From positions 1-36,314 of IMG/VR virus record IMGVR_UViG_3300042691_017324: 36,314 nt of DNA, one strand, 5' to 3'. A model generated the notes under the pieces. That model had not been told where the DNA came from and did not search any database. It saw only the letters and a program-made list of their open reading frames with translations. Of the stretch, positions 985 through 14,889 are shown in pieces. Origin of the DNA: a virus. Both the position numbers and the translations under genes were made by a program. How positions within the stretch are numbered: the stretch's first letter is position 1; every line of letters begins with the position of its first letter.

Positions 985-2081
985 TTCTTGAAAACTCGGA
1001 TAAATTTTTCAAATAGATAAGAAGTTAGCTTTTGATCTTCTTCAAGAAGCTTGCGGAAATTATCCATTCCTTGAATCTGCTTAGGAACAGTAAATCCATT
1101 TTCAGTAAGCTCCTTCAATAGATCATCGCATACAGTAATCCAAGCGGTCTTAGCTTCGATCATTTCCCAAGCTTTCAACTGTTCGATAACTTCATATTCT
1201 ATCCAAATACTATTGCCATTATCGCGACCATATTTAATTGGATATTTAACTTCTACTCCAGTCTTTTCATTAGGAGTCTTTCGGAACATGATCTTACACC
1301 AATGTCCAATTGGAGTCTTGTTATCAGGTCCGCCAAAGATAATATCCTTTTGAAAACGCTGTTGGAATTCAAGAATCCAATCAGAATAATGTAGAGCGGC
1401 ATTTCCACCACTTGCGTTCGTAACCTTTGGATCGCCCTTTTCGTAAGGATTAATCTTAATGGTGGAACGGACTTGAGAAATCAAGAAACAGATATGCCCC
1501 TTGGTAGAGAAATAATTAGCCATCTTCCTCAAGAAGTTTGATGTAAGAAGTGCGCCACCAGCAGTTCGATCAGCTTCACTTGCGCCCTTTGCCATGTCAT
1601 TTCTTGGAACGAGAGAATCAAGAGAATCAATGACGAACATGTAATAATGATCATCAGGATTTAGCTTGGTAACATCTCTGATCATATCAATTACGAATTC
1701 AAAATCATTCGTAGGAATAACTTTCCATCGCTTGGGATCAGTATCAACACCAGATCGCGAAATGATTTCTTTAGAAAGTCGCCCTTCAGCCTTGATATAA
1801 ACTACAACGCCATTGTCAGGATGAACCTTCTGAAAGTTTCTAGCGAAAGCAAGAGCGTTTGATGTTTTGCCGCCTTCTGTAATACCTGTAGAACGAACAA
1901 CACCGGGGCGAATTCCGCCGCCCATTTCCATATCAAGAACCAAGCTTCCGCTGCTAACTGTATATTCAACAGGATTATCGAAAGCAAAATGGTGTTCTGA
2001 ATTATCTTTTAGATACTTATCTAGTGATGAAAGCTTTGAAGCTACTGTATTTGTGTCTTGGTTTTTTGGAGGTCTAGCCAT
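981..2081 (-). CDS. uvsX: UvsX/RecA-like recombinase
   Basis: A 366-residue RecA-fold ATPase. The Walker A motif GITEGGKT is at 66-73, Walker B YYMFVIDSLDSL at 146-157 (acidic D152), the DNA-binding loop region with DRTAGGALLTSNFLRKM near 171-188, and ISQVR at 201-205. The length is close to T4 UvsX (about 390). This class forms filaments on single-stranded DNA and drives strand exchange in recombination-dependent replication. Its neighbours, a nuclease and a DnaB-like helicase immediately downstream with 4-base overlaps, fit a replication and recombination operon. Calling it UvsX rather than bacterial RecA is based on length and phage context. Confidence 0.88.
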   Translation of the reverse strand: MARPPKNQDTNTVASKLSSLDKYLKDNSEHHFAFDNPVEYTVSSGSLVLDMEMGGGIRPGVVRSTGITEGGKTSNALAFARNFQKVHPDNGVVVYIKAEGRLSKEIISRSGVDTDPKRWKVIPTNDFEFVIDMIRDVTKLNPDDHYYMFVIDSLDSLVPRNDMAKGASEADRTAGGALLTSNFLRKMANYFSTKGHICFLISQVRSTIKINPYEKGDPKVTNASGGNAALHYSDWILEFQQRFQKDIIFGGPDNKTPIGHWCKIMFRKTPNEKTGVEVKYPIKYGRDNGNSIWIEYEVIEQLKAWEMIEAKTAWITVCDDLLKELTENGFTVPKQIQGMDNFRKLLEEDQKLTSYLFEKFIRVFKK

Positions 2082-8070: not shown

Positions 8071-8665
8071 ATATTTCTAATTTACGGTTCTTTATCTTTC
8101 TTTTAAGAAGACTTATTCCTTTTTTGTGAAGATTCAAAACTGTTTGCGTTGTAACTCCGAGTTCTTCCGCAATGTTTTTCCACTTCACTTTATAATCAGA
8201 ATACTTCCTCTTGAAAACGTATGAAATTCTATCGTCAGAGACATCTGAAAATGCAGTTAAAATATTTTCTAAATTTACTTTAACAGGCTTTTTTCGATAA
8301 GCCTCCATTGAGATTTCAGAATCTATGATAGGGGAAATTTCCTCATTGTCAACAAAGAATTTGTTTTTCGTGTTCGAAATCCTGTTCAGGCAATGGAATC
8401 TAGCTTGGTTCGCGAGCCAAGTAGAAAACTTAACATTTTTATCAGCGTCGAAAGAAGACAATGAATTATAAAATACGAACATCTTATCAGATAAAATATC
8501 TTCACTTGATACTCCTGATCTCTTTAGTCCGTTCATATATCCATGACACACTTTATAATACAAGTTTTCGTGCCTTGAAACCAGTTCGCAAAATGCATCG
8601 TTGCAAGTTTCTTCGTTTATTAGCTTGATTAACTCTACGTCTGATAACTTATTTAAGTTTTTCAT
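8063..8665 (-). CDS. Sigma70-family (ECF-like) RNA polymerase sigma factor
   Basis: A 200-residue protein with two recognisable regions. SSEDILSDKMFVFYNSLSSF followed by KFSTWLANQARFHCLNRI (about 53-95) is sigma region 2, which binds core polymerase and the -10 element. VKWKNIAEELGVTTQTVLNLHKKG (about 159-183) is a region 4 helix-turn-helix for the -35. Region 1 and region 3 are absent or reduced, as in ECF-type and many phage sigma factors. It would redirect host RNA polymerase to a phage promoter class, probably later genes. It overlaps both neighbours by 4-8 bases, in the dNMP kinase operon. Confidence 0.83.
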   Translation of the reverse strand: MKNLNKLSDVELIKLINEETCNDAFCELVSRHENLYYKVCHGYMNGLKRSGVSSEDILSDKMFVFYNSLSSFDADKNVKFSTWLANQARFHCLNRISNTKNKFFVDNEEISPIIDSEISMEAYRKKPVKVNLENILTAFSDVSDDRISYVFKRKYSDYKVKWKNIAEELGVTTQTVLNLHKKGISLLKRKIKNRKLEIYE

Positions 8666-9282
8666 TTTAAATGTAAATCAAGGATGCACTGATTTACAAA
8701 TAAGTCAAGCACTTTAATATCAGAAACTTTGGGCCAAATTACATAGTAATCAGCATCTTCTCTAACTTTAGGATAATGAAACGATTCTTCTTCGTTTGGT
8801 GGCTGAACTTTTACGCCATTTTTTGGATTATAACATGAAACATCAATCAAGCGACCTTTTAAAACGTGCTTCAACCAAAATACTTCATCTTTAGAAAAAT
8901 AGTTATGACGTATATCGGTTATGCAAATGTATTGAGACTTAGATTCCAAGATCTTCTTAGTTATAATATCTGTCCAAAACTTTCCATACGATTCCAATCT
9001 CTTTTGCTTCGCAAAAAGAACGAGATCGTTTCTAACCAAGTCCTTCTCTTCTCGCGTACAATTCAAAATGTCAACATTGTATTTTTTAATAAGGTCTTCC
9101 CTTAGAAGAATTTTCAATTCATCTGCTAGGGCGAATCTTTCGAACGGTAGTTTCTGCGATAGCAGAGAGAAGAACGTATCCTTTCCACTACTGGCTACGC
9201 CAGACAATCCAAGGATTGTACGAGAACCGAGATTTGATTTATTAAGTTTTGACATGCAACCAACGCTGGAAAAGGAATCCAT
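8662..9282 (-). CDS. Deoxynucleoside monophosphate kinase-like P-loop protein
   Basis: A 206-residue P-loop kinase. The Walker A GVASSGKDT is at 28-36, an ALADELK lid/LID-proximal segment follows, and CITDIRHNYFSKDE near 119-132 resembles the T4 gp1/dNMP kinase family, which phosphorylates dNMPs to dNDPs. It fits with the reductase, dUTPase, ThyX and deaminase in the window. An in-frame ATG at 9255 is an alternative start; I kept 9282 because a promoter and an inverted repeat sit just upstream of it. Substrate specificity cannot be read. Confidence 0.78.
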   Translation of the reverse strand: MDSFSSVGCMSKLNKSNLGSRTILGLSGVASSGKDTFFSLLSQKLPFERFALADELKILLREDLIKKYNVDILNCTREEKDLVRNDLVLFAKQKRLESYGKFWTDIITKKILESKSQYICITDIRHNYFSKDEVFWLKHVLKGRLIDVSCYNPKNGVKVQPPNEEESFHYPKVREDADYYVIWPKVSDIKVLDLFVNQCILDLHLK

Positions 9283-9284
9283 CT

Positions 9285-9304
9285 CTAATATGTATTTATA
9301 TTAG
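9285..9304. repeat. Inverted repeat abutting the dNMP kinase start codon
   Basis: CTAATAT, six bases, ATATTAG: a perfect 7-base inverted repeat ending two bases before the ATG at 9282 on the minus strand. It also contains the TAATAT that serves as -10 in the promoter proposed at 9325-9298. It could be an operator or a hairpin near the start codon. In AT-rich DNA a 7-base match can be chance. Confidence 0.45.
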
Positions 9305-9325
9305 ATCATAAACGACATTATTCAA
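9298..9325 (-). promoter_or_regulatory. Sigma70-like promoter for the dNMP kinase-sigma operon
   Basis: On the minus strand TTGAAT (9325-9320), a 16-base spacer and TAATAT (9303-9298). The predicted start near 9291 gives a leader of about 9 bases before the ATG at 9282. The -10 hexamer is the same TAATAT seen at 5212 and 21427. The -35 matches 4 of 6. Confidence 0.5.
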
Positions 9326-9326
9326 G

Positions 9327-9608
9327 CCAAATCAGTTCTTCGCAACCTATTTCGTAGGCTTTCGACCCTATTTCGTAGAGCCTAGCTAATGACTTGAATA
9401 AATATTTACCGCCAAAATCCGATTGAACTTTTTTTATTGCTCGCCTCACCGACTAGGTGAGTCTATCGATCTCGTCTTACGAACGCCGCTTTTTCCCGAA
9501 ATAACGTTGAAGTTCTTAGCTTCACTTGATCGATGCCTTTCTACGGGCCTGATGTCTCTTACGGTTCACGCTGGATTCCCAGCAAGCTAGTAATCGGTTG
9601 TCGTGACC
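9327..9608 (-). ncRNA. Candidate structured non-coding RNA, about 280 bases, unknown class
   Basis: The 326 bases between the kinase and the next gene hold no convincing reading frame but many complementary segments. Visible pairings (plus-strand coordinates): 9602-9608 with 9563-9570 (7 pairs, one bulge), hairpin 9570-9574/9579-9583 with a 4-base loop, 9508-9512 with 9520-9524, 9465-9471 with 9528-9534 (7 pairs), hairpin 9445-9450/9456-9461 (6 pairs), and 9318-9326 with 9393-9401 (9 pairs). The GC content looks higher than in the flanking genes. Both neighbours are minus strand, so a minus transcript is assumed. It does not show RNase P, tmRNA or group I intron signatures that I could find. 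Possible weak promoter: TTGACA at 9634-9629 with TAAGGT at 9611-9606. Confidence 0.55.
9346..9378. repeat. Short tandem direct repeat inside the structured region
   Basis: The 12-mer CCTATTTCGTAG occurs at 9346-9357 and again at 9367-9378, each beside a TTCG-containing segment. The first copy can form its own CCTA/TAGG hairpin, or the pair can take part in a GGCT/AGCC helix at 9357-9362 and 9377-9382, so alternative folds are possible. Confidence 0.6.
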
Positions 9609-10031
9609 TTAGTCCTCCTTAGAAGATTTGTCAACCTCTTTTTTCAAAAAATCTAAAATGTGCAAAATGTTCCACAAATCCTTGGGTTTTAGCTCTTTTG
9701 GATCGCACGTTTCCGAGTCGTCCTTGATGACTTCTTGGCAGAACCAATTTACTCTGTCCGCGATATTGCAAGCAAGTGCGCCATTAATTTTAATATCTTG
9801 CTCCATCTGCTCCAACTTTCTATTTAAAAAATAAATCTTCTCTCCGTCAGGATTAGATTCGCAAGCTACAAAATTTTCAGACAATAAATTATTCAACGCG
9901 CAAACAACTGGGTATTTGTCGTTGTCATCCTCATGGATAACCAAAAGTTTATTTAAATCCTTCGGGTAATTAAAATAATCGTTTTCAGAAAACCAGTTAA
10001 TTAGTTTTAAAGATGCTTCTAAAGTAGTCAT
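9609..10031 (-). CDS. Hypothetical protein, possible winged-helix fold
   Basis: A 140-residue protein, not recognised. Residues 1-75 (a helical start, YFNYPKDLNKLL, ALNNLLSENFVAC, then a short hairpin EKIYFLNR) have the order of a winged helix, and the rest is helical with an acidic/lysine C-terminus. It is the first minus-strand gene at the divergent junction, with its ATG 9 bases from the ATG of the plus-strand gene. A regulator would be a natural occupant of that position, but this is only a suggestion. Confidence 0.62.
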   Translation of the reverse strand: MTTLEASLKLINWFSENDYFNYPKDLNKLLVIHEDDNDKYPVVCALNNLLSENFVACESNPDGEKIYFLNRKLEQMEQDIKINGALACNIADRVNWFCQEVIKDDSETCDPKELKPKDLWNILHILDFLKKEVDKSSKED

Positions 10032-14712: not shown

Positions 14713-14786
14713 GAGAGTATAGCTTAATGGTAAAGCGCGATTTTTCCAAATTCGACATGGATGTTCGATTCAACCTACTCTCTCCA
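14713..14786 (+). tRNA. tRNA-Gly (anticodon UCC)
   Basis: 74 bases fold into a cloverleaf: acceptor GAGAGTA (14713-14719) with TACTCTC (14776-14782), D-stem GCTT/AAGC, anticodon stem CGATT/ATTCG with one T-T mismatch and loop TTTCCAA (anticodon TCC), T-loop TTCGATT with one A-A mismatch in its stem, discriminator T and an encoded CCA. It reads GGA, a frequent glycine codon in these genes. Confidence 0.92.
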
Positions 14787-14813: not shown

Positions 14814-14889
14814 TGGGGGTTCGTATAATGGATCATTACTGTCGCCTTTGAAGCGATAAATGGGGTTTCGATCACCTCACCCCCAACCA
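14814..14889 (+). tRNA. tRNA-Gln (anticodon UUG)
   Basis: 76 bases: acceptor TGGGGGT (14814-14820) with ACCCCCA (14879-14885), D-stem GTAT/TTAC, anticodon stem GTCGC/GCGAT with loop CTTTGAA (anticodon TTG), T-stem GGGGT/ACCTC with loop TTCGATC, discriminator A and encoded CCA. It reads CAA. Only 27 bases separate it from tRNA-Gly, so the two are probably processed from one transcript. Confidence 0.93.

Follow-up and report, generated by a model that had tools for sequence, protein, structure and literature searches.

Positions 9301 to 9608 of the IMG/VR phage record IMGVR_UViG_3300042691_017324 (positions 1-36,314; this whole stretch of 36,314 bases is referred to here as the window) almost certainly encode, on the minus strand, a real structured RNA, whose RNA nature and fold are well supported by its relatives. 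As far as sequence comparison goes, this is a new phage RNA family, absent from the 4227 families of Rfam and kept across a group of uncultured phages, and it is the comparison between phages that establishes its RNA nature, strand, helices and conservation. We infer further that it is transcribed, independently of the downstream operon, and that it acts in trans, perhaps with a protein partner. The best reading, to which we give a probability of roughly 0.6, would be a stand-alone gene with an independent, trans-acting function.

The RNA is located in a non-coding gap at 9283-9608, flanked by minus-strand ORFs at 8662-9282 and 9609-10031, which confirms the non-coding region of about 300 bases that a previous sequence-only reading had placed at 9301-9608. 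The ORF downstream of the RNA is a deoxynucleoside monophosphate (dNMP) kinase-like gene (8662..9249, minus strand; PHROG 139). Its start is probably at 9249 and not at 9282, since the ATG at that upstream position is not in frame in the relative L008, and the non-coding stretch would then be ca. 350 bases long. Just upstream of the RNA is a gene coding for a protein of 140 amino acids (P140; 9609..10031, minus strand), recognised by synteny and a 22-member alignment. Besides the kinase-like protein, the minus-strand genes to the left of ca. 9.6 kb code for a UvsX-like recombinase, a class II-type ribonucleotide reductase, a nucleotide-sugar epimerase, a glycosyltransferase, a DUF736-like protein (weak match) and a sigma factor. 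Within the gap, the structured RNA, which we call family A, was delimited at 9301..9604 (minus strand) by its homologs, its covariation, and the lack of a reading frame and of an Rfam match. The family A core is found at 9318-9599, and the 3' end may extend past a hairpin at 9284-9305 toward the kinase gene. Elsewhere in the window, there are a tRNA-Gly (TCC, 14713-14786) and a tRNA-Gln (TTG, 14814-14889), both on the plus strand.

Homologs of family A were recovered from 12 IMG/VR phage contigs beyond the window, a figure that includes one cut off at the contig end (L021) and leaves out a duplicate (L062). They were retrieved by pattern scans with two conserved blocks, by a scan for the glycosyltransferase gene (a useful anchor, being conserved and encoded one to three kilobases downstream) and then by a profile search; chance pattern matches were recognised and dropped. 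One relative contig has flanking proteins 79-81% identical to those of the window, and between the two the RNA region is better conserved than the flanking ORFs. The feature that defines the family, a conserved linker together with a three-way junction (helices H3/H4/H5), is present in the window, and the exact degenerate pattern of the conserved single-stranded block was found in only six IMG/VR contigs. A covariance model built from family A (R1) gave 119 bits for the window and 107 bits for L077, both of which are training members, while all its other matches among 66 sources had E values of 0.04 or higher. No copy of the RNA was found in the bacterial genome contigs scanned, at the sensitivity used. 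Cultured phage records likewise contained no similar DNA or proteins at the sensitivity used (matches of 28-35 bases were due to chance), and the clade is represented by many environmental contigs, the phage records searched having yielded no cultured member. The absence of a known class, also claimed by the sequence-only reading, was borne out by Rfam 15 (4227 families). The window had no match at the gathering score and no meaningful score at E values up to 10, where a single 24-base match appeared (E, 9.3), and the relatives gave only tRNAs, tmRNAs elsewhere and chance matches (in L016, L022 and L034, none at E ≤ 2). The tmRNA genes detected by Rfam in the clade are at L003:1165-1537 (minus strand, 84.6 bits) and L075:1-297 (minus strand, 51.1 bits), the former being missed by ARAGORN.

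The core of 13 sequences was aligned with MAFFT, and the consensus fold was obtained with RNAalifold. It contains a three-way junction (9465..9534, minus strand) formed by H3 (9528-9534/9465-9471), H4 (9520-9524/9508-9512) and H5 (9503-9507/9483-9487), with the conserved loop TATTTCGGGAAAAAGCGGC. H3 (ATCGATC/GATCGAT) had already been drawn from the single sequence, and it covaries in the relatives. In the 13-sequence alignment, 13 of the 16 junction pairs show two-sided changes and 94.4% of the cells are paired, vs 72.4% when shuffled. The two-sided compensatory cells number 56, against 18.6 ± 3.9 in shuffled alignments (0 of 500 as high) and 2-15 in slid ones; the shuffle controls ignore the relatedness of the sequences, whereas the slid controls account for it. 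The 3' domain (9318..9401, minus strand) is closed by H6 (9393-9401/9318-9326; TTATTCAAG/CTTGAATAA on the minus strand), another helix proposed beforehand that proved to covary, with 90.6% of cells paired, 40 two-sided cells vs 12.7 in shuffles and 6-17 in slid versions, and all four Watson-Crick pair types at several positions. Inside this domain are the conserved TAGCTAGGC (9380-9388), GCGAAG (9338-9343) and two CTACGAAATAG hairpins (9368-9378 and 9347-9357). The hairpins correspond to a 12-base direct repeat that had been noticed previously and is indeed present (CCTATTTCGTAG at 9346-9357 and 9367-9378); on the minus strand it makes two alike hairpins, CUA-CGAAA-UAG.

Beyond these helices, the very start of the RNA (CCGATT, 9592..9597, minus strand) pairs with AATCGG at 9419..9424 (minus strand) to form the long-range helix P2. 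Its strands co-vary (AGTTCTTTGTCT/AGACAAAGAACT in L009 and CGTTCGATT/AATCGAACG in L014), and in a best-helix search of the RNA 5' end against the stretch behind the pseudoknot strand, own partners scored 18.2 and swapped partners 13.4 (permutation p < 5e-5). Most relatives have, in addition, an inner helix P3 (GCGGYR/YRCCGC). The hairpin H1 (GCTGG-GAAT-CCAGC, 9570..9583, minus strand) was read by eye and is present, with different sequence and strands chosen by eye, in nine other tabulated members. The pseudoknot helix S1, also by eye, pairs AGTTC (9425..9429) with GAACT (9334..9338), both on the minus strand, and becomes AGTCC/GGACT in most members and AATCC/GGATT in L009; as the strands in the table of H1 and S1 were chosen to pair, it is weaker evidence on its own. 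The most conserved single-stranded block, AAGAGACATCAGGCCCGTAGAAAGGC, is at 9535..9560 (minus strand; alignment A4). A variable hairpin, D1 (CTCACC-TAGTC-GGTGAG, 9445..9461, minus strand), shows compensatory change with respect to L008 (GCCACC-TAGAA-GGTGGC); in most other members, but not in the window, the equivalent stretch is copy 1 of the direct repeat described below. G-U pairs are common at alignment columns 100/118 and 101/117 (junction) and 15/112 (H6), and on the plus strand they would turn into A-C combinations; the RNA must therefore be read from the minus strand, as previously proposed and in agreement with the promoter and the gene order. Some candidate elements were discarded. 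An rRNA-like boxA at the 5' end of the relatives was withdrawn, its bases being those of the covarying P2; so was a second pseudoknot helix, CCGC/GCGG, the poorest in the table, since YRCCGC pairs better with the 5'-end GCGGYR (P3). A closing helix ACGACA/TGTCGT joining the ends of the window RNA is not kept in L014.

One of the checks set by the sequence-only reading, an excess of fold stability over shuffled sequence, failed. The minus strand folds at -81.2 kcal/mol, vs -77.3 ± 4.9 for the shuffles (z, -0.80, with 22 of 100 shuffles equally stable), and the plus strand has a z of -1.34, so that on the fold-energy criterion alone the finding would fail, because the folding energy is unexceptional. 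This test is weak for RNAs of such a kind. Single-sequence folding does not reveal the RNA, and cross-phage comparison does: the other check, covariation in related phages, gave two-sided changes far above shuffled and slid controls, and this strong covariation upholds the original idea of a structured RNA.

The gap analysis covered 80 loci, and about 20 further phages from the clade had unmatched RNA-like gaps of ca. 400-480 nt at the equivalent place. A second family (B, 14 aligned sequences) has 39 predicted pairs, 25 of them with two-sided changes, and four helices with 87 two-sided cells vs 26.6 in shuffles. A specific family B pattern was present in 21 IMG/VR contigs, and all 11 among the matches listed look B-like (examples are L084:3395-3800, L109:3440-3860 and L042:957-1427, besides ca. 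18 more contigs). Family B RNAs have no Rfam match at the gathering score. They have their own motifs and covariation and are not detected by model R1, so that, as compared here, A and B appear to be separate families, the search with the A model lending no support to a shared origin. In L084 the family B RNA is located between two opposite-strand (minus-strand) ORFs; the L114 copy has the reverse orientation and sits apart from both P140 and the kinase. Because these RNAs can lie among opposite-strand genes or be moved and inverted, they point to independent, trans-acting RNA genes rather than leaders, and it is in family B that independence is clearest. Further unmatched RNA-like gaps (L072:3600-4010, L098:3600-4000, L087:3740-4040, L107:2920-3230 and L102:2869-3371) resemble, by eye, two more groups, most of them with a purine-rich repeat near the 3' end; the groupings made by eye were L072 with L098, L087 with L107, and L075 with L102 and L111.

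In family A, a sigma-70-type promoter is predicted at 9606..9634 (minus strand) from the pattern in relatives, with the -35 box TTGACA (9629-9634) within the 3' end of the P140 ORF, a 17-base spacer and the -10 box TAAGGT (9606-9611), and the RNA would start near 9599 on the minus strand. Twelve of the 13 family A members have TTGAC(A/C/T/G) and a -10-like hexamer at the matching place, L051 having TTGCAA. The window promoter escaped a consensus scan, TAAGGT being a weak -10. In the window, the RNA is followed at once by the kinase, which has the same orientation; we found no terminator-like site, and the sole minus-strand promoter-like site (9317-9345) is inside the RNA and no more than expected by chance. 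With no terminator to separate them, co-transcription, or some read-through of the RNA into the kinase, is likely in the window. A rival reading, unlikely as we find it, is that the RNA is a cis-acting leader (riboswitch-like or an attenuator) of the kinase-sigma factor-glycosyltransferase operon, controlling read-through or translation. In the window, as in most family A members, it is found just upstream of this operon and in the same orientation, the operon gene order is conserved, and the start of the kinase ORF in L009 and L014 coincides with copy 2 of the direct repeat. However, the next gene is not always the same: it is the kinase in most members, the sigma factor in L016, L054 and L061, another gene in L052 and a tRNA in L022, and the kinase is absent or elsewhere in L016, L052, L054 and L061 despite the presence of the RNA. 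Some members, by reading of their sequences, even have an intrinsic-terminator-like hairpin with a T run (L016) or a new TTGAC-type promoter (L022 and L054) behind the RNA. The placement of family B RNAs argues in the same direction, no riboswitch family of Rfam matches, and the leader position is not constant. In L022, the tRNA gene (1310-1382, plus strand) immediately follows the family A RNA with its repeat and precedes the new kinase promoter.

Most family A members (L009, L014, L016, L022, L051, L052, L054, L077 and L082) carry a sequence of 13-17 nt in two copies, the first within the RNA and the second 185-242 nt further downstream, close to the probable 3' end of the RNA. Within a phage the two copies match, whereas from phage to phage the sequence changes (score of 12.3 for own copies and 7.2 for others). 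Eight members had a significance of 0/200 shuffles, L052 was assigned by eye, and L061 has an imperfect version; in L009 and L014 the 12-mers of the repeat occur exactly twice in the whole contig. The window and L008 are without it (score 6, within shuffles), and for this reason the repeat does not define the whole of family A. A comparable pair of copies, ca. 65 nt apart, is seen in family B. A pairing partner for the repeat was sought in family A without success (own 11.4 vs other 10.9; 13.7 vs 13.1), and the idea of a switch, with an "anti" strand able to pair with either copy, was unsupported in A and only weakly supported in B (own 15.6 vs 12.4). A repeat that is matched and yet phage specific is a feature of specialist interest. 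Tentatively, and with more doubt than conviction, families A and B and the further unmatched RNAs of the locus might be seen as one superfamily, whose 3' part contains two matching copies of a purine-rich repeat (approximately CUNAGGGAAAAG, with a tail specific to each phage) as a programmable recognition element. If true, the matched copies would serve within-RNA switching, self-assembly or a trans target, a way of working undescribed for phage RNAs.

Less likely again than a leader is a self-associating structural RNA, i.e., an oligomer similar to those of GOLLD or ROOL, in which molecules, or parts of one molecule, would recognise each other through the phage-specific repeat; this would be a special case of the stand-alone RNA. 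By analogy, the genomic kind is alike (large, with many helices and a pseudoknot, from uncultured phages, and with one copy directly before a tRNA, in L022), and the agreement of copies 1 and 2 within each phage, together with their divergence between phages, would fit. Against it are the failure to find a pairing partner for the repeat in family A, the window and L008 being devoid of the repeat, and a length of ca. 430 nt, shorter than either ROOL or GOLLD. Also improbable is a replication-origin RNA at the divergence of the gene arms, with its 3' part priming DNA via an R-loop, as ColE1 RNA II does. Gene orientation and GC skew do flip at the RNA locus, both in the window (ca. 9.6-10.0 kb) and in two longer clade contigs (G008, ca. 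20.9 kb, and G004, ca. 41 kb), and in several relatives the RNA 3' end coincides with A+T-rich DNA and a purine tract, GGGAAAAG being one example. However, skew merely follows gene strand, so its flip is not independent evidence of an origin, L114 carries the RNA inverted, and neither a replication initiator gene nor iterons were identified beside the RNA. Finally, a decayed or frameshifted protein gene, or a conserved DNA regulatory sequence with helices arising by chance, is made very unlikely by the compensatory changes and by the sense frames, which disagree between members and have 4-12 stops each in every complete member, with none kept open, so that the conserved protein frame that the sequence-only reading had named as a counter-indication is absent and only short peptide-like readings (KRHQARRK near the core, KLAV in L009 and L014) speak for coding. 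The direct repeat was also considered as coding for KLAV and rejected, its frame not being constant.

For the stand-alone RNA gene that we favor, phage or host RNA polymerase would use the sigma-70-type promoter located where the P140 gene ends and produce an RNA of ca. 300 nt or more in the window and ca. 400-450 nt in relatives. P2 (plus P3 in most relatives) would close a 5' domain containing H1, the conserved purine-rich linker and the three-way junction, which the pseudoknot S1 would tie to the 3' domain closed by H6. The folded RNA would then act in trans, alone or with a protein, for which P140 is the first candidate by position only, its gene adjoining the RNA at the majority of loci of both families (it is not adjacent in L084 and L114). 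P140 represents a conserved family of 140 amino acids without Pfam or PHROG matches. An AlphaFold2 model from the 22-member alignment (A7; mean pLDDT, 91.9) looks winged-helix-like with a two-helix tail, and a fold search gave nothing significant (best E values, 0.027 in PDB, a MarR regulator, and 0.022 among viral models). The alignments, coordinates and candidate partner now available make expression, structure, oligomer state and partner directly testable in vitro.

Among known systems, group I and II introns and RNase P RNA gave no Rfam match to the catalytic core. The likeness to tmRNA lies in an about equal length, pseudoknots and a purine-rich stretch, but ARAGORN and Rfam find no tmRNA here, and there is neither an acceptor stem nor a T arm. 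A tmRNA-like tag was considered too and rejected, since the peptide-like frame after the repeat is not constant. ColE1 RNA II, a replication primer RNA, is also a structured transcript, and the RNA described here might similarly act at an origin, but there is no plasmid replicon here. OLE is a large conserved structured RNA with known protein partners (PMC12286853); in contrast to family A, it is bacterial, and it has no Rfam match here. GOLLD is a large structured noncoding RNA of phages and prophages, of unknown function and often near tRNA genes (PMC12286853), but it exceeds 800 nt, vs ca. 430 nt for family A, with no Rfam match and no common conserved motif seen. ROOL is phage borne, with many helices and pseudoknots, no known protein partner and unknown function (PMC12286853); family A is shorter (ROOL env-120 has 659 nt), and there is no Rfam match. 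GOLLD and ROOL thus appear to be the nearest in broad kind, with family A matching neither, and the large phage RNAs, very few in number so far, gain at least two covariation-supported families.
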